64,000 nt of DNA from an uncultured Halobacteriovorax sp. GTDB lineage: Bacteria; Bdellovibrionota; Bacteriovoracia; Bacteriovoracales; Bacteriovoracaceae. Each line of letters begins with the position of its first letter. Positions within the stretch are counted from its first letter, which is position 1. A program made the position numbers and the translations under genes. Location of the stretch: the NCBI GenBank assembly GCA_913061265.1, contig CAJXVS010000003.1, forward strand, positions 434,001-498,000, written 5' to 3'. Below are positions 16,758 through 45,768 of the stretch, piece by piece. The notes under the pieces were generated by a model. The model was given only the letters and a program-made list of their open reading frames with translations. It searched no databases and had not been told where the DNA came from.

Positions 16758-17834
16758 ATGCTCTATCATTTTCTCTATCCTCTCAGTCAATCAGTATCGG
16801 CCTTCAATATTTTTCGCTACATAACGTTTCGCGCAATCGTAGCTTTTCTTATTGCATCAGCTATCTCTATTATTTGGGGGAAAGCGTTCATCAAGTTTAT
16901 GAAGAAGAAGCAATTCGGCCAGGTCATTAGAGAGGATGGACCGCAGAGTCATTTAAAGAAAGCTGGTACCCCGACAATGGGTGGAGTGGTGATACTAGGT
17001 AGCATCGGCTTTGCTCTCTTATTTTGTGGAAACTTTTTATCAGCACCTTTTCTTGTAACTCTATTCGTTATGATTTCATATTTTGCTTTAGGCTTTAGAG
17101 ACGATTATCTAAAAGTGCTTAAGGGTAACTCTGATGGAGTGTCTGCTAAGGGAAAACTGGTTTGGCAGTTTGCCACAGCAATAGCAGCTTGTTGGTATCT
17201 ATATTATCAGGGTGTTATCGATACACAATTGTATATGCCTTTCGTAAAGGGCCCAGTTGTTGACCTTGGAATGTTTTATATCGTTTTTGCCAGTATCGTA
17301 ATTGTTGGTTCGAGTAATGCGGTTAACCTGACTGATGGATTGGATGGGCTTGCGATCGGCCCTATCATAACCAGTTCTGTCTCCCTAGCTTTGTTAGCAT
17401 ATGTGTCAGGGCATCGCGAAATTAGTGCATACTTATTCATCCCATATATCGATGGAGTCGGTGAGTTAAGCATTTTAGCTACTGCCATAATAGGTGCTGG
17501 CGTTGGCTTTTTATGGTACAACTCTTATCCAGCTCAAATATTTATGGGTGATGTGGGTTCATTATCTCTAGGCGGTACTTTAGGTACTCTAGCGGTGATT
17601 ACTAAGAATGAGATTTTGTTCGTTTTAATTGGTGGAGTATTTGTAGTTGAAGCCGTCTCGGTAATTCTGCAAGTAGGATCTTTTAAGCTTCGGGGAAAAA
17701 GAATTTTTAAAATGGCTCCTATACATCATCATTTTGAGCTCAAAGGTTGGCCGGAGCCAAAAGTGATAGTCCGTTTTTGGATTATTAGTATTTTCTTGGC
17801 ACTAGTCGCTATAGCTACATTGAAGATGAGGTAA
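16758..17834 (+). CDS. mraY: Phospho-MurNAc-pentapeptide transferase
   Basis: Transfers phospho-MurNAc-pentapeptide to undecaprenyl phosphate, making lipid I at the inner membrane. A polytopic protein of 358 residues that begins MLYHFLYPL like typical MraY. It has TPTMGG, FRDDYLK, the catalytic NLTDGLDGLA motif, MGDVGSLSLGG and the C-terminal APIHHHFELKGW. All key Asp and His residues are visible. It lies 24 bp after murF and 5 bp before murD. Confidence 0.96.
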   Translation: MLYHFLYPLSQSVSAFNIFRYITFRAIVAFLIASAISIIWGKAFIKFMKKKQFGQVIREDGPQSHLKKAGTPTMGGVVILGSIGFALLFCGNFLSAPFLVTLFVMISYFALGFRDDYLKVLKGNSDGVSAKGKLVWQFATAIAACWYLYYQGVIDTQLYMPFVKGPVVDLGMFYIVFASIVIVGSSNAVNLTDGLDGLAIGPIITSSVSLALLAYVSGHREISAYLFIPYIDGVGELSILATAIIGAGVGFLWYNSYPAQIFMGDVGSLSLGGTLGTLAVITKNEILFVLIGGVFVVEAVSVILQVGSFKLRGKRIFKMAPIHHHFELKGWPEPKVIVRFWIISIFLALVAIATLKMR

Positions 17835-17839
17835 ATTGA

Positions 17840-19222
17840 ATGGAAAGATTCAAGAATAAAAAAATACTAATTGTTGGCATCGGTAAAACGGGATTTACTC
17901 TCATTAACTTTTTTAACAAGTTAGAGTGTTTAATTCGCGTAACAGATATAAAGCCAATCTTTGACTTAAACAAAGCTGTTAAAAAACTTAAGAAGATCTC
18001 CCCTGCTCCTGAAATGACTTTTGGTGAACATAGAGAAGATGATTTTCTTGAAGCTGATGTAATCGTTTATTCTTCATCAGTAGAACCCACTCTTCCACAG
18101 TTAGAGTTTGCACGTCAGAATGGTAAAGAAGTTTATAGTGAATTTGGTTTGGCCAATAAACTATGCCGTAAACCAATTATTGCAGTTTGTGGAAGTCAGG
18201 GTAGAACAACCGTCGCCCATATGATTGGTTTTACATTAAAGCTTGATGGTAAAAATGTCTTTGTTGGTGGAACTAGTGAAAGTCCATTTATTGAATATTG
18301 CATGCTTCCGAATCAAGATGAAATTGATTATGTAATTGTTGAAGTATCAGCAATTCAGATGAGAAGCTTACAGAACTTTCATCCTAAATTAGTAGTCTTT
18401 ACAAATATTAGTGAGAAATACCCTGAGAGCCATTTTAGGTCTGTGGGTGAATACATTGAAACTAAGCTTTCAATTATTAAATCACTTTCTCCTGATGATC
18501 TTCTTGTTGTTAACTTTGATACATTAGCGAATAATACTTTTTTTAGAAACGCTAACTGCCAAACATATTGGTATTCAAGAAGAAGCTTCCAAAAGATGGG
18601 AGTTATGAATGAGATCCAAGGAACTCATTTTCATGAGAGAAGAATTCACAGCAATATAAATTATCACTCAGAATTTAAAGTTAATAAGATGAGAATTGTT
18701 GGTCAGGATAATAGAGAGAATCTACTTGCTGCCATCACTGCTTGTAAGGCATTAGATGCTTCAGATAAGGCTATTCAGAGCTGTATTGAGAAGTTTCCAG
18801 GAATTCCTCATAGAATCGAATTCCTTATGGAAAAAAACGGAGTTTCTTTTTATAACGATTCAAAAGCTGAAAAAATGGAAGATATGCTTAAAAGTATCGC
18901 AGCTTTTAAGAATCCGGTAATTCTAGTTGCTGGTGGTAAAGATAATGAAGAGATTGAATTCGAGCCTTATGCAGATGAAATTATCAAGTATGCAAGAGTT
19001 CTCGTTTTGGTCGGTGAGTGTAAAGAGCGTCTGAATAGGGCTCTCGGTGAACATCCTCAGACTTATATCGTAGGTAGCTTCGAAGAATCTGTCTTATTTG
19101 CTTACCAAAAAAGTAGAACCGGAGATACTATACTTCTTTCCCCGGGTAATGGGAGTAGTGACTTTTTCAGAGATTTTGAAGAAAGAGGTAATTACTTTAA
19201 GAAATTAGTCTACCAATTGTAG
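17840..19222 (+). CDS. murD: MurD-like ligase with degenerate catalytic motifs
   Basis: MurD adds D-Glu to UDP-MurNAc-L-Ala. Position (between mraY and ftsW), length (460 residues), the Rossmann-like N-terminus (KILIVGIGKTG) and the order of later landmarks identify the family. Several normally invariant residues differ. The ATP loop is GSQGRTT (118-124), so the P-loop Lys is Arg122. The segment usually written N-x-x-EDH is NISEKY, with Tyr194 where the metal-binding His is expected. The HN motif is replaced by GQDNRENL, NDSKATN is NDSKAEK (339-345), and the C-terminal LSPACAS is LSPGNGS. Glu168 and Lys209 are kept. MurE, MurF and MurC in the same cluster have intact P-loops. It may be a slow or altered MurD, or a non-catalytic paralogue. 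Confidence 0.8.
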   Translation: MERFKNKKILIVGIGKTGFTLINFFNKLECLIRVTDIKPIFDLNKAVKKLKKISPAPEMTFGEHREDDFLEADVIVYSSSVEPTLPQLEFARQNGKEVYSEFGLANKLCRKPIIAVCGSQGRTTVAHMIGFTLKLDGKNVFVGGTSESPFIEYCMLPNQDEIDYVIVEVSAIQMRSLQNFHPKLVVFTNISEKYPESHFRSVGEYIETKLSIIKSLSPDDLLVVNFDTLANNTFFRNANCQTYWYSRRSFQKMGVMNEIQGTHFHERRIHSNINYHSEFKVNKMRIVGQDNRENLLAAITACKALDASDKAIQSCIEKFPGIPHRIEFLMEKNGVSFYNDSKAEKMEDMLKSIAAFKNPVILVAGGKDNEEIEFEPYADEIIKYARVLVLVGECKERLNRALGEHPQTYIVGSFEESVLFAYQKSRTGDTILLSPGNGSSDFFRDFEERGNYFKKLVYQL

Positions 19223-19268: not shown

Positions 19269-20480
19269 ATGGAAGAATCGCTAGAAGAAATTAATCAAAC
19301 ATCAAAACTTTTTATCATTACGACTCTGATTCTTTCAGTGATTGGAGTCATTATGGTGTACTCCTCTAGTTATATTTTAGCTCAAGAATTATTCGGAAAT
19401 AGTAATTACTATTTCTTCAAACAAGTTACTTTTTTATCTGTTGGAACGTTGATCGCTTTTATTGTTTCAAAAACGAAGATTAGTTTTTGGGTAAAATATA
19501 GTCACTATATTAATTGGTTCTTCGCAGCCCTTTTACTCGCAACATTTTTTCCTGGAATTGGTAAATCCGTTAAAGGTGCAAAGAGATGGATCGACTTAGG
19601 ATTCTTTGGATTTCAACCAGGTGAGTTAGTGAAGTATACAATTTTATTAAGCTCAGTAAGCTTGTTCGATAATTTTGTTATGTTAGATAAAAGAGAAAAG
19701 ATCAATAGAGTTGTAGGTTTATTGGCTCCCCTCTTATTACTTTTATTACAACCCGATTTTGGATCATTTTCAATCTGCCTTATCATTATTGCTTATGCTT
19801 GCTTCTTAAGTGATTTTCCGCGTAAAATTTTCTATTACGGCTTCGGTTTTGCTGTAACTGCCGTGATTCCAATCTTAATTTCACAACCCTATAGAGTTAA
19901 GAGACTGTTCACCTTCTTAGACCCTTGGAAGAATCCACAAACATCAGGGTTTCAAATTATTCAATCCTATTTAGGGTTCGCTAATGGATCGATCTTTGGT
20001 GTCGGACTAGGAAATAGTAATGAGAAATTATTCTATTTACCTGAAGCACATAATGATTTTATCTTTAGTGTTATTGGTGAAGAACTAGGGTTTATAGGGG
20101 TTTCGACTATCGTTATTCTCTTCTTTGCCTTTACTGTGTTTGGGCAGAAGTTAGCGCTGTTAATTTCTAATAGAAAAGAATCAATGGTTATATCTTGTGT
20201 TATCTTTTTGATAACTCTTCAGGCCTCTCTCAATATGGGAGTTGTTTTAGGACTTCTACCTACTAAAGGACTTAATTTACCATTTATAAGCTCTGGTGGT
20301 TCAAGCTTATTAGCGAATGCTTTTGGGATAGGTCTTGTTTTAAGTGCTCTAAATTCTTATAGAAAGAACATGATTTCTCAAAGTTCTTTCTTTCCTAATA
20401 ATCAAACATATGAAAACCCATTAAGTCCAAGCTCTCCCCCAATAGAAAAAAGTTTTTCGGCGAGTAGACTTCCAAGATAA
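19269..20480 (+). CDS. ftsW: Septal peptidoglycan glycosyltransferase FtsW
   Basis: A SEDS-family polymerase that builds septal glycan with FtsI. About ten membrane segments are visible in 403 residues, with the family motifs GAKRWIDLGFFGFQPGE, LLQPDFGS, HNDFIFSVIGEELGF and a C-terminal PFISSGGSSL. The last 35 residues are polar and cytoplasmic. It follows murD after 46 bp and precedes murC by only 11 bp. In most dcw clusters murG lies in this gap; here it is missing. Confidence 0.95.
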   Translation: MEESLEEINQTSKLFIITTLILSVIGVIMVYSSSYILAQELFGNSNYYFFKQVTFLSVGTLIAFIVSKTKISFWVKYSHYINWFFAALLLATFFPGIGKSVKGAKRWIDLGFFGFQPGELVKYTILLSSVSLFDNFVMLDKREKINRVVGLLAPLLLLLLQPDFGSFSICLIIIAYACFLSDFPRKIFYYGFGFAVTAVIPILISQPYRVKRLFTFLDPWKNPQTSGFQIIQSYLGFANGSIFGVGLGNSNEKLFYLPEAHNDFIFSVIGEELGFIGVSTIVILFFAFTVFGQKLALLISNRKESMVISCVIFLITLQASLNMGVVLGLLPTKGLNLPFISSGGSSLLANAFGIGLVLSALNSYRKNMISQSSFFPNNQTYENPLSPSSPPIEKSFSASRLPR

Positions 20481-21877: not shown

Positions 21878-22775
21878 ATTAAAAGAACTTTTAAAGCCTT
21901 ATCCTTCTGTTCTTTTAGAAGAAGGCAGAGATCTAACTAAACTATCTACGATGAGACTTAAAGCAATTGGTAACTTGATTACTATTAGCTCTGTCGACGA
22001 TGTTAAGCTTGTTCTTCCTTTACTAAAAAAAGAAAATATAAAGTATAGGCTACTTGGATGGGGAGCAAATCAATTACTACCAAAAGAAAGCAATGTTCCT
22101 TACATAACGTTGGCACTTCCCTTTGATAAAAACTACTTTAGTGAAGTGCGCGAAGAATATGACCTACCGGCTTCTGTCTCACTTTCAATTATGTCCTCTC
22201 ATGCAGTTAAAAATGGCTTAAAAGGATGGGAAGTCTTTACTGGGATACCTGCTTCTCTTGGTGGGGCAATCTTTATGAATGCTGGGACAAATTTAGGAGA
22301 AATTTGTTCAATTGTTAAAGAAGTTACGTTGGTGGATTCTAATGGGAATCTAAAAGTAGAAAAGATAGATGATGATTCTTTTAGTTATAGGAAGAACTAT
22401 TTTGTTAAACCGGGCGATGTCATTGTTAGTGCTAAATTGATTCACCTAGGACAATTACCTGAAATCACAAATCAAATCAAAGAATATTTGGCCTTAAGAA
22501 ATAGAACTCAACCCTTAAAAGAGTCTACTTGCGGATGTATTTTTAAGAACTACAACAAAACTTCTGAGATTTGCCGTGCAGGAATGTTTATAGATATAAT
22601 TGGCTTGAAAGGTTTTACTCATAAAGATATTCAGATTAGTCCAAAGCATGCAAACTTTATGGTAAATCTAGGCGACTCTAACCTAGATGACATTGGTAAA
22701 ACGATAGATATAGTTAAAAAAGAACTTATGCTACAATATGGTGTAGAGTTCGAAACAGAGGTAAAGTTAGAATAA
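21864..22775 (+). CDS. murB: UDP-N-acetylenolpyruvoylglucosamine reductase
   Basis: FAD-dependent reductase that makes UDP-MurNAc. It shows the FAD-binding GIPASLGGAIFMNAG stretch, the YRKNYF motif (usual YR.S.F), the catalytic-region STCGCIFKN with an unusual CGC, and ISPKHANFMVNLG near the C-terminus. The FAD N-terminal domain (LLGWGANQLLP, usually G.GSN.L) is divergent. The start is GTG at 21864, inside the murC end by 14 bp. The one-base overlap with the next gene indicates continued co-translation. Confidence 0.9.
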   Translation: MAESRLKELLKPYPSVLLEEGRDLTKLSTMRLKAIGNLITISSVDDVKLVLPLLKKENIKYRLLGWGANQLLPKESNVPYITLALPFDKNYFSEVREEYDLPASVSLSIMSSHAVKNGLKGWEVFTGIPASLGGAIFMNAGTNLGEICSIVKEVTLVDSNGNLKVEKIDDDSFSYRKNYFVKPGDVIVSAKLIHLGQLPEITNQIKEYLALRNRTQPLKESTCGCIFKNYNKTSEICRAGMFIDIIGLKGFTHKDIQISPKHANFMVNLGDSNLDDIGKTIDIVKKELMLQYGVEFETEVKLE

Positions 22776-23533
22776 TGATAAAAACATTCTTTTTCTTTTT
22801 ATTACTAATACCTTCACTATCGTTTGCGACTAAAGCAGACTTCAAGAGCCTATCTAAAGAAAATAAGTATAAGTATAGAACTAGTTTTGGCACTTGCCCT
22901 TCCCGAACAGCAGGAAGCTTTGCTTTTCAGTTAATGAAGATCTTCGAAGAAGAGAAGTCTTTAAAAAAGCTTAAGGAAAGGATCACTAAAGAAAAACTAG
23001 ATTCTAAGCATTATGTTTCTAGTTATAAGGTTAACTTTAATCCACTTAAGAATTCACTATTTTTAAGCTTTGAATGCCCTAAACCTTTGATGAAGGTCCA
23101 ACTTTATAAAGAGAACGGCTTGGAGTCTTACGAGGCGATTCTTGTTGATACTGGCGAACTAATTGACCCAACTTATGAAGTTCTGCTTAGAAGTGAGAAA
23201 AAGTTAAAAAAGACTCTTCCTTTCTTAGCGTTACCTATTCAAAAAATGGATAAAGGTGTTCAGCTTAGCCTGACAAGTTTAATCAAGAATATGGATCCAA
23301 TTATCTCTAGATCAGTAAGTGAAATGATCCTAAGTGAAGAAAAGAACCTCACAATCATCCTTTCTTTAAGAAACACGCCCTCTAGTGTGTTTTTAGGGAA
23401 AGATAACTGGACTGAAAAAGTCAAGAAAATGGAAAGGGTAGTAAAATACTTGGATAAGAAAAGAAAGATCCCCGCCATTATCAATCTAACCAATTCTAAG
23501 AAAGTGGTTGTCAAGTTTAGCGACAAATTCTAA
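22775..23533 (+). CDS. FtsQ-position protein with signal peptide
   Basis: A 252-residue protein between murB and ftsA, where ftsQ stands in other bacteria. The N-terminus is a short, very hydrophobic segment starting at residue 4 and ending LSFATKA, which looks like a cleavable signal peptide rather than the cytoplasm-anchored segment of FtsQ. The middle (VNFNPLKNSLFLSFECPKPLMKVQL, then a GELIDPTYE turn and LPFLALP) and the end (KKMERVVKYLDKKRKIPAIINLTNSKKVVVKF) resemble the order of strands in the FtsQ beta domain. No direct sequence match to FtsQ can be claimed. If it is FtsQ it would be periplasmic after cleavage, or anchored only by the uncleaved signal. It overlaps murB by 1 bp. Confidence 0.6.
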   Translation: MIKTFFFFLLLIPSLSFATKADFKSLSKENKYKYRTSFGTCPSRTAGSFAFQLMKIFEEEKSLKKLKERITKEKLDSKHYVSSYKVNFNPLKNSLFLSFECPKPLMKVQLYKENGLESYEAILVDTGELIDPTYEVLLRSEKKLKKTLPFLALPIQKMDKGVQLSLTSLIKNMDPIISRSVSEMILSEEKNLTIILSLRNTPSSVFLGKDNWTEKVKKMERVVKYLDKKRKIPAIINLTNSKKVVVKFSDKF

Positions 23534-42591: not shown

Positions 42592-44214
42592 TTAAGCGAA
42601 GCTTCTTGCTTCGGTGGAATCGTTCTTCTTTTTCTTAGTAACAGGCATAGATCTTGCGTCTTTTTCAATTTGATTTAGACAATCGAGAGCAACCTGTAAG
42701 TTCTTCTTAAGTTTATATAATAGATCTTCAACAGAGCGTAACTGTTCTTCCTGAGAACTGCATTGAAGGTTCTCCAGCCTTGCTTTGAACTCGATGACTG
42801 AGATTGAGCTAACAAACTTGTCCTCTGATCTATTAAGTAATCGATCAAGGGCCACAATAAAATTATTTACTTCACTGTTTGAATCAGATGCATTGTTAAG
42901 GCTTCTTAAAGTTCCAAGTAGGTCTTTGCTAACTTCACTAATAGCCGTCTTTTCTGTATCTAAAACGGATTGAACTTGTGAATACTTATAGTCTGAAAAA
43001 TAAGTTTTAATATCCCAGTTAAGATCTGTTCCGACCCATTTTGAAATATAGCTTCTTTGAATTTGCCTTTTTAAAAGAGCGACTGAAAAATGTCCATCTG
43101 CCGGTTTTAAGTTCCAACCCATTTTGTCACGAAACGTAATATAAACCGAGCTGCACATAATTTTAGTATAAGTGTCTTCATTAGGGCTTAGTAAGAATTT
43201 AACTGAATCAACAATTAGGCTTTCCATATTATTAGGACCTAAAACGATCACATTCCCAGTATTAGAAGTTCCTTGCTTGAGGGTCATTTCAAGGTTAGTC
43301 GCATATTCAACCACTCTACAGTCGACAAGATCAGCTAGATGCTTCACAGAAGTATCAGGTGTAATGAGAATATCTAGTCCCGATAAAACAGAAGTGAGGG
43401 CCAGGAAGTCTGACTCTACTATGATTAGTTTGTTATTAAATTGCTCATTTATTAATTTTGATCTTTCTCTTTCTTCTTTTGTTGGAGCAATAAGAAGAAT
43501 AGGAAACAATTCTGAATCACTAAGAAGATTTTCGATAATCTCCACGACTTTTTCTTCAGACCAGTTCTTATTCGCGACGCTAGTAAAAAGGTGCAGACCT
43601 ATAAGGCTACATGTTGATCCATCTTGAGAGTTAAGCCTTCTTAGGTTTTGAAAATTATTCTCGACAGTTAAGTCATGCTTCTTAATTTTTCTAATTTTAT
43701 TGACGCCCTTGTATTCATTTATATTACACATTCCATGATATGCAGTTGAGAAATGGACAGGGGAATAGTCAGATGTAGTCATTAACTCGTTGAAAATAAT
43801 TTCCCAAGGAGAATCATATTTAACATTGTTTTGATTACCAAACTTTACACCGGAAATCAGAGTATCTTCAGCATCGGCAAGGTAATTACAAAGAAAGGTT
43901 GTTGCCTTGTCACTTGAATAGTTAATAATATTTGACCAAACCATGGACTCTATTGGTTTTAATTCTTCTACAAGTTCATCTAGAGCAAACCCATTTGAAT
44001 ATAGATTGTGATTGCTAAATGTACTGATTTTCTTTCGATCAACCGTGAAGACACCCTTAAAGATTGATAGGGGTTTTGTGGCTTTACTAAACTCGTTATA
44101 GGTTAATATATAAGCTGAAGCATGCGGGTGTTCCTTAAGATAGGATTCAGCTAGCTTCGCAGTATTAAAAATATCGCCATTTCTTTTTAAATTTACAAAT
44201 AAAACATTACTCAT
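42592..44214 (-). CDS. GT9-like glycosyltransferase, second copy
   Basis: A 540-residue protein with the same plan as the other GT9-like gene downstream: an N-terminal GT-B domain (LFVNLKRNGDIFNTAKLAES), GLHLFTSVANKNWSEEK, LLIAPTKEE, and LDILITPDTSVKHLADLVDCRVVEY, which fits the sugar-nucleotide site (usual DTGPMHLA). From ~370 on it is helical with a basic tail. It overlaps the Maf-like gene by 4 bp. Likely acceptors are flagellin or another envelope protein, by context only. Confidence 0.7.
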   Translation of the reverse strand: MSNVLFVNLKRNGDIFNTAKLAESYLKEHPHASAYILTYNEFSKATKPLSIFKGVFTVDRKKISTFSNHNLYSNGFALDELVEELKPIESMVWSNIINYSSDKATTFLCNYLADAEDTLISGVKFGNQNNVKYDSPWEIIFNELMTTSDYSPVHFSTAYHGMCNINEYKGVNKIRKIKKHDLTVENNFQNLRRLNSQDGSTCSLIGLHLFTSVANKNWSEEKVVEIIENLLSDSELFPILLIAPTKEERERSKLINEQFNNKLIIVESDFLALTSVLSGLDILITPDTSVKHLADLVDCRVVEYATNLEMTLKQGTSNTGNVIVLGPNNMESLIVDSVKFLLSPNEDTYTKIMCSSVYITFRDKMGWNLKPADGHFSVALLKRQIQRSYISKWVGTDLNWDIKTYFSDYKYSQVQSVLDTEKTAISEVSKDLLGTLRSLNNASDSNSEVNNFIVALDRLLNRSEDKFVSSISVIEFKARLENLQCSSQEEQLRSVEDLLYKLKKNLQVALDCLNQIEKDARSMPVTKKKKNDSTEARSFA

Positions 44215-44888
44215 TTTTCTTCTCTACTGGTTGTGTTCTCAGGGCTATTTATCGAATTTAGGGCCAAGGTCAAATAGTCCCACTTATTCCATTTACTCTT
44301 CTTGCTGTTAATAGAATTAACCAATTCAAAATATCCTTTAGATTCATGATTTAAGATGTATTTCTTTAACTCAGGATTACTAATATGATTTGAAATTGAA
44401 TTCAGATCAGTTTTAGCCGAAAATGACATAAGTGTTTTGAAGTAGTCCTGAAATAAATTAAAAGAAGCAGTATGTGGAACAACCGCTGGTTTTGTAGATA
44501 AAAAGTCTACGATATCTCTATTGTCGTAAACTTCACTTACAGTTAAGCCTGAGTGAAGTATTACATTGTCGCCATATTCAAGATGACGATTTTCTAATAA
44601 TAGTTCTTCTGTCTCATTCAATGGATCAATAACCATAATTTGAAAATCATCTCCCCAGAATCTTTTCATTTGATAAACGATTCGATCAATATGGTAAGCA
44701 AAGCCCAAACCTAGGACTAAAATATTTCTATTTTCCTGAATGACCAAATCAAATTTTTCAACAAAAGATTCAGCCTCTTTTGTTGGGTTATAGCTTGAAT
44801 GTAAATGGACGCCATTAACGACTGGGACAGGGTATCCAGTTTTTGATTCTCTTATTTCAATTTGGTTTTGTTTTTCGTAGTTCATCAT
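44211..44888 (-). CDS. Maf-like N-terminal domain protein (flagellar glycosylation)
   Basis: A 225-residue protein. HLHSSYNPTKEAESFVEKF followed by NILVLGLGFAYHIDRI and VIDPLNETEELLLENR matches the layout of the N-terminal region of Maf (motility-associated factor) proteins, with the 'lhS.ynP..EA' motif and a nucleotide-binding-like GLGxGYH stretch. Maf proteins transfer sialic-acid-like sugars to flagellin. This copy lacks the larger catalytic domain seen in full-length Maf, so it may be a shortened relative. It overlaps the next glycosyltransferase by 4 bp, and 91 bp separates it from the fliT-position gene. Confidence 0.6.
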   Translation of the reverse strand: MMNYEKQNQIEIRESKTGYPVPVVNGVHLHSSYNPTKEAESFVEKFDLVIQENRNILVLGLGFAYHIDRIVYQMKRFWGDDFQIMVIDPLNETEELLLENRHLEYGDNVILHSGLTVSEVYDNRDIVDFLSTKPAVVPHTASFNLFQDYFKTLMSFSAKTDLNSISNHISNPELKKYILNHESKGYFELVNSINSKKSKWNKWDYLTLALNSINSPENTTSREEK

Positions 44889-45357: not shown

Positions 45358-45768
45358 TTAAGCCTCTGCTTCAGGTTCTTTTTTTACAGCATTTTCTTTT
45401 CTTAAACCTTTAATAGCATCACTCCAGCCTTCATAAAGAGTCGTTAAAACTTGAAGACAGCCCGTTAGTGGCTCAGTTTCAATCTTAATATTGGCCTGTG
45501 TGCTTGCAAAAAGAACATAGTCGTAAAGACTGCTAAGTTCTTCTGCAACATCACCACCAATTTTAAAATCCAAGCTATTGTTCAGTTCAATGACAATGTC
45601 CTGAAGCTTTCCAATAAACTCACCTTTTTTAGCAATGTCTTTAGCTTCAATAGCCTCAATAGCTTTTTTGCAATTTTTAATTGCAGCTTGGTAAAGCATA
45701 AGTAAGATTTGTTCCTTACTAGCTGTATGAATTGATGTTTTCTTATAAGCCCCTAATCCATAGTTCAT
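45358..45768 (-). CDS. fliS: Flagellin export chaperone FliS
   Basis: Binds flagellin's C-terminus in the cytoplasm and stops early polymerisation. The 136-residue protein starts NYGLGAYKKTSIHTASKEQILLMLYQAAIKNCKKAI, matching the FliS opening (Y....V.TA....L..MLY.GA). It has conserved features near LNNSLDFKIGGDVAEELSSLYDY. AGGAGG lies 6 bp before the ATG. Downstream of fliD by 14 bp. Confidence 0.9.
   Translation of the reverse strand: MNYGLGAYKKTSIHTASKEQILLMLYQAAIKNCKKAIEAIEAKDIAKKGEFIGKLQDIVIELNNSLDFKIGGDVAEELSSLYDYVLFASTQANIKIETEPLTGCLQVLTTLYEGWSDAIKGLRKENAVKKEPEAEA

Follow-up and report, generated by a model that had tools for sequence, protein, structure and literature searches.

MurD is essential and serves as an antibiotic target. 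Some homologues of wall enzymes have turned into regulators, among them CwlM of mycobacteria, which acts on MurA, and EnvC of E. coli (PMC4946905). A MurG oligomer of Bordetella has been proposed as the scaffold of the cytoplasmic Mur complex (PMC6420597), and Xanthomonas follows an unusual MurD2/MurL route (PMC8788868). Here we describe MurD*, as we label the altered MurD-like protein of 460 aa encoded at 17840-19222 (+) in the division and cell wall (dcw) cluster of a predatory bacterium of the Bacteriovorax/Halobacteriovorax group. The window, meaning the whole stretch of 64,000 nucleotides that was analysed (G000:C3:434001-498000), comes from a genome of 3.97 Mb in 12 contigs, 99.75% complete, whose nearest named relatives are Halobacteriovorax sp. 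and Bacteriovoracaceae metagenome genomes. Our comparison makes it fairly probable that MurD* is no longer a D-glutamate (D-Glu) ligase but has become a pseudoenzyme, probably one that is abundant, binds ligand and acts as scaffold or regulator, and that a second MurD does the chemistry.

Canonical MurD (E. coli 2jfg/4uag, S. agalactiae 3lk7) shares with MurD* the fold, the three domains, the dcw position, the nucleotide-pocket residues and about 25% identity. Unlike canonical MurD, MurD* has the P-loop Lys, the metal/substrate His, N138, T321 and K348 replaced (E. coli MurD, b0088, is the numbering reference), and its genome holds a second, canonical MurD. CwlM and EnvC resemble MurD* in keeping an enzyme fold, losing catalytic residues and controlling wall synthesis or septation; they are unrelated amidase/endopeptidase homologues, whereas MurD* belongs to the Mur ligases and still occupies its dcw locus, the enzyme itself having moved to another place. 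The MurG model likewise has a Mur protein organise the precursor pathway at the membrane. MurG, unlike MurD*, is an active enzyme, and murG of the window genome lies outside the dcw cluster: its sole match (L331, G000:C2:135-1127), at a contig start, scores 216 bits against a murG cut-off of 250. Neither an inactive MurD at its own dcw locus nor a murD duplication in Bdellovibrionota was found in the open-access literature, subscription journals not being covered.

Residue changes in the dcw-resident MurD

By its dcw position beside mraY and ftsW and by its orthologous clade, MurD* is a MurD. The initial annotation had recognised it from length and gene order, and the full-length fold agrees. 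It matches the NCBIfam murD equivalog TIGR01087 over its full length with 281 bits (cut-off 211.95) and carries the three Mur-ligase domains of Pfam (MurD-like_N, Mur_ligase_M, Mur_ligase_C); PDB sequence matches also place it as a full-length MurD. Its predicted fold is that of MurD, in a model of moderate confidence (predicted local distance difference test, pLDDT, 76; predicted template modelling score, pTM, 0.69) whose top Foldseek matches are all MurD. Because the NCBIfam model accepts MurD*, automatic annotation would hide the residue changes.

Aligned to E. coli MurD, MurD* shows K115 replaced by R122, H183 by Y194, D182 by K193, N138 by T145, H267 by D290, T321 by E344, N322 by K345 and K348 by N369, and it retains the equivalents of E157, K198, N268, N271, R302, D317, K319 and S415. 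The P-loop reads CGSQGRTT (G118-S-Q-G-R122-T-T124, 18191..18211, +), with Arg122 (AGA, 18203-18205) in place of the catalytic Lys115; Thr145 lies at 18272..18274 (+), Tyr194 (TAC) at 18419..18421 (+) and Glu344 at 18869..18871 (+). From E. coli MurD structures, we take H183 to serve metal and substrate, N138 to contact UDP-N-acetylmuramoyl-L-alanine (UDP-MurNAc-L-Ala) and T321 to belong to the D-Glu site. K348 is given as a contact of the D-Glu carboxylate, and MurD* has Asn369 there. MurD* thus departs from MurD at the Lys of the P-loop GxxGK[ST]T, at the invariant His183 and at the D-Glu site T321/K348. Published work assigns to the P-loop Lys (GKTT motif) of this enzyme family the stabilisation of the triphosphate (PMC3060825); carbamylated K198 stabilises Mg2+, and K198 mutants are much less active (PMC4816537); D182 and K348 are situated at the Glu site (PMC8788868).

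The alignment confirms the two substitutions on which the initial annotation turned, Arg122 for the P-loop Lys and Tyr194 for the metal-site His, and its statement that MurE, MurF and MurC keep intact P-loops (all G[TS][NH]GK[ST]T). Three further motifs that it called altered are so in part. The HN motif has lost its His (D290-N291) and keeps both Asn (N268, N271); NDSKATN reads NDSKAEK, with T321 and N322 changed to Glu and Lys and with D317 and K319 kept; LSPACAS reads LSPGNGS and keeps S415. No shifted P-loop Lys or His replacing the lost ones was found elsewhere in the alignment.

The same changes run through 78 dcw copies from the window's family (Bacteriovoracaceae/Halobacteriovoraceae kin). 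K115 is Arg in 78/78 and His183 is absent from 78/78; N138 is Thr in 75/78, T321 is Glu in 71/78, and K348 is lost. The K198 equivalent, still Lys in the window protein, is kept in 57/78 and lost in 21/78, and the nucleotide-binding set is retained in 76-77/78. Arg122 is written with all six Arg codons across the family (AGA, AGG, CGT, CGC, CGA, CGG), so it is selected, neither an error nor inherited unchanged. MurD* shows these sequence marks of a pseudoenzyme: catalytic residues lost across a clade, with the fold and strong purifying selection kept.

In the window the dcw genes run rsmH, ftsI, murE, murF, mraY, murD*, ftsW, murC, murB, an ftsQ-like gene, ftsA and ftsZ. The order mraY-murD-ftsW is kept in the dcw clusters of family f1, with mraY (16758..17834, +) as the fixed upstream and ftsW (19269..20480, +) as the fixed downstream neighbour. 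The open reading frame (ORF) between murB and ftsA, 22775-23533, has a weak FtsQ/DivIB C-terminal match (PF03799, 26.6 bits) and is without an NCBIfam match.

A second, canonical MurD

A family search for Mur-ligase middle domains in the window genome returned six: MurE, MurF, MurC, MurD*, an Mpl-like protein on contig C4 and one on C1. The Mpl-like ligase (L006:973-2400, -) has the sequence appearance of the UDP-MurNAc:tripeptide recycling type and might reuse prey wall peptides. The C1 gene (G000:C1:300942-302267(-), 442 aa, 312 bits on the murD model) is a second MurD, with the GTNGKST-type and His motifs that were sought in the genome; its motifs read GTNGKTT, PNHGERY, AKAKFNI, GIHN, NDAKSTN and LSPAFPSFD. 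MurI, for D-Glu supply, is also present (G000:C5:307854-308525, 158.9 bits, cut-off 146.65).

The two murD genes co-occur across the family. The second gene turned up, whole or in fragments, in 88 of 95 family genomes (48 genera); G023 is the one exception among the 62 with a completeness of 90% or more, 61 of which yielded it. In G004, a two-contig genome, both murD genes lie on the main contig, and two distant genera have a conserved gene neighbourhood around the second copy. All 44 second copies that were extracted are canonical at K115, N138, E157, H183, K198, R302, D317, K319 and T321, the very Asn, His and Thr that the dcw copies have replaced included. Full-length matches are 33-68% identical to the window genome's second copy; UDP-site residues D35/R37 shifted between alignments of the second copies and were given no weight.

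The initial annotation had offered two options, an enzyme with an unusual active site, or a step supplied by another gene and a new role here; the second canonical MurD strongly favours the latter, as judged from sequence. Nor does the dcw copy pass for a normal variant shared with relatives, since those that carry the same dcw changes carry a second canonical MurD as well.

Relative to E. coli MurD, the second MurD (L005:919-2247, -) carries K348R, A414P and L416F, the three replacements reported for the L-Glu-specific MurD2 of Xanthomonas. Lineages with MurD2 are without D-Glu synthesis (PMC8788868), whereas the window genome has MurI; and MurD2 keeps the catalytic residues that MurD* loses. 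No murL was recognised beside the second murD, its flanks being read by eye without a MurL model. We rejected the MurD2/MurL route for the second copy, given MurI and the fact that L416F is common in the phylum's canonical dcw MurDs, which makes the resemblance weak.

Constraint, codon usage and recurrence

MurD* is held under strong constraint. Across 21 family genomes, which had to carry MurD* and were otherwise picked without regard to its similarity, pairwise identities average 67.4% for MurD*, 67.3 for MraY, 64.3 for FtsA, 64.2 for FtsZ and 50.5 for FtsW, and 47.4% for MurC, 44.5 for MurB, 39.6 for MurE and 38.4 for MurF. MurD* is therefore conserved equally to MraY, slightly above FtsZ and FtsA and far above MurC, MurE and MurF. 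An apparent rank as the cluster's most conserved protein (81% against 70% for FtsZ) was discarded as query-biased, the loci having been found with MurD* itself. Between two close relatives, its ratio of nonsynonymous to synonymous change (dN/dS) is 0.007, the lowest of the measurable dcw genes and below mraY, ftsA, murC, ftsW, ftsZ and murB, although synonymous divergence (dS) is about 1.4. The family's dcw clade sits on a long stem (~0.8) in the tree and its crown is shallow; the crown of the second-copy clade is deep. A burst followed by near-freezing of MurD* is what a functional change would leave.

Codon usage is ftsZ-like. With ribosomal and EF-Tu genes as reference, the codon adaptation index of MurD* is 0.659, third of 53 window ORFs, beside 0.667 for ftsZ, 0.572 for murF, 0.551 for murC, 0.545 for the second murD and 0.487 for mraY. 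In most of 17 family genomes (EF-Tu reference) ftsZ alone ranks above murD, with means of 0.560 for murD, 0.587 for ftsZ and 0.47-0.49 for murC/E/F. A smaller excess for dcw murD also appears in other families of the phylum whose dcw MurD is still canonical; E. coli is without it (murD 0.339, murE 0.341, murF 0.337, murC 0.329, ftsZ 0.462). The bias points to a high-demand role of dcw MurD older than the catalytic loss, and the protein would be abundant. Elsewhere in the window, the highest codon adaptation belongs to fliS (45358-45768); the adjoining ORF 44211-44888 (-), 225 aa and without an NCBIfam or Pfam family, ranks fourth.

Two segments of MurD* stand out. Residues 241-285 (WYSR.S...G...QGTHFH..RI..N...HS.F.V..MRI; 18560..18694, +) are invariant at 47% of positions in the family's dcw copies, at 2% in other dcw MurDs and at 0% in second copies, and have low pLDDT in the structure model; for the N-terminal UDP domain the invariant share is 31% against 7%. 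The C-terminal patch K395-E396..N399-R400 plus AYQKSR (421-426; 19022..19117, +) is common to the phylum's dcw MurDs and missing from second copies. Both are first candidate sites for a binding partner, and part of the constraint on these segments may come from common descent within the dcw clade and not from function.

The pattern recurs across the phylum. Of the families compared, seven have an intact second MurD (f1, f7, f15, f17, f22, f24, f6), and in each of them the dcw MurD of the examined members is altered; in ten examined single-MurD families the dcw copy is canonical at K115/N138/E157/H183/K198/R302/D317/K319/T321. Such a split, 7/7 against 0/10, would arise by chance with a probability of ~5e-5 if families were independent, which they are not, and f6 is altered mildly. 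In f7, f17 and f24, K115 stays and most members are changed at H183, K198 and K319; N138 and S159 are gone from f22 and f15, and K198 from f22 as well. That different families lost different residues suggests repeated independent inactivation. Altered dcw copies with a separate canonical MurD were seen at L280 (G192, f24), L278/L279 (G042, G056, f7), L287/L288 (G153, G178, f17), L275 (G174, f22) and L291 (G133, f15).

The dcw copies, altered and canonical together, make up a single clade (support 100/96), so MurD* is a resident gene rather than a newcomer. Second copies of the window's family form one clade and those of f6, f7, f17 and f24 another; joining the two was not rejected (approximately unbiased test, p 0.25), and their gene surroundings differ. 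One f8 locus (L152, G190:C363) presents the reverse of the window's family: a second MurD-like gene is altered (GTKGKGT P-loop, K319 to Phe) and the dcw MurD is canonical. In f9 (L138, L139, L141) the only MurD is short (389-413 aa) and very divergent, with canonical catalytic residues; it directly follows mraY, a position that marks it as the dcw copy, and we rejected it as a second copy.

Readings of MurD*

Loss of D-Glu ligation by MurD* is strongly inferred from these comparisons; the scaffold or regulator role was chosen by analogy and is put forward as a putative one. We propose that D-Glu would be added by the second MurD, outside the dcw cluster (G000:C1:300942-302267). MurD* keeps the fold, the nucleotide residues (equivalents of E157, N268, N271, R302, D317 and K319) and most UDP-site residues (T16, D35, R/K37); gone are the Lys for the gamma-phosphate, the His for metal and substrate, and the D-Glu site. 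It would presumably bind nucleotide, and perhaps UDP-MurNAc-peptide, without ligating D-Glu. As a structural or regulatory part of the cytoplasmic wall-synthesis and division machinery beside MraY and FtsW, it might use the 241-285 segment and the C-terminal KE..NR/AYQKSR face to organise or gate other Mur/Fts proteins. In the likely history, the phylum's dcw MurD would already have had a further role besides ligation; with catalysis then covered by another murD, the dcw copy would have been free to specialise and would have done so repeatedly, in several families.

Several observations weigh against this proposal. In genome G023, 95% complete and in 220 contigs, the dcw copy is altered and a second MurD was not found even by hidden Markov model (HMM), which we attribute to assembly gaps. 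The dcw copy of f6 (Bdellovibrio-like) is altered mildly, mainly at N138, in 6/7 genomes, and the families compared are not independent. High conservation and codon bias of dcw MurD occur also where it is canonical, so by themselves they show no post-enzymatic role. K198 persists in 57/78 copies and Arg sometimes replaces a P-loop Lys, so some residual activity may remain. The scaffold or regulator role, with its putative partner, is drawn by analogy, and the whole case is built by comparing sequences.

The retained nucleotide residues also fit a new enzyme, whose reshaped pocket (C117, R122, T145, E344, N437) would bind nucleotide and another substrate, or hydrolyse ATP, in wall or nucleotide metabolism. 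Its replacements are fixed (C117 and R122 in 78/78, T145 in 75/78, F199 in 77/78), unlike random decay. We regard this as doubtful: with Lys, His and partly K198 gone, the known Mur catalytic set is removed, and relatives show free variation at positions of the old active site (H183, D182, K348, H267), unlike what a new active site would show.

Somewhat less plausible still is a MurD that works with an unusual active site, the second copy being a spare or serving special conditions. MurD* does score above the murD cut-off, stays between mraY and ftsW, and keeps K198, E157, R302, D317 and K319 in the window protein; yet K115 and H183 are gone in every family copy, the D-Glu site has T321 changed to Glu and K348 lost, K198 too is missing from 21, and dcw MurD is altered only in families with an intact second MurD.

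MurD* might instead be the specific regulatory partner of the second MurD, a heteromer of pseudoenzyme and enzyme rather than a general scaffold. Family-wide co-occurrence fits this, and CwlM-MurA shows that an inactive enzyme homologue can control a Mur enzyme (PMC4946905). Obligate partners would not be expected to differ as these do, the second copy evolving fast (33-68% identity) and MurD* nearly frozen, with codon bias much stronger in murD* than in the second murD, and we hold such a pairing to be improbable. A decaying pseudogene or sequencing artefact would explain the lost catalytic residues and is refuted by 78 open copies, strong constraint, a dN/dS of ~0.007 and six Arg codons for R122, which leave it next to no chance.

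Beyond the pseudoenzyme that we prefer for the window's family, a wider idea is offered tentatively, as one that may well be wrong: within one phylum, a Mur ligase would repeatedly have become an FtsZ-level, nucleotide-gated structural protein of the division or elongation machinery, and the phylum's dcw MurD would do something besides catalysis even in lineages that retain its enzyme activity.

For Bacteriovorax-type predators, standard annotation would name the wrong gene as the MurD enzyme. MurD chemistry appears to have been split from the dcw place, with the intact ligase evolving quickly elsewhere and the seemingly dead dcw copy among the most conserved of its cluster. It is surprising, and open to test, that a dead Mur ligase should stay where it was and be as conserved as MraY and FtsZ are. 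That Mur ligases act as division scaffolds or signals is a long-discussed idea, and it may now be tested directly because the functions would lie on two genes.
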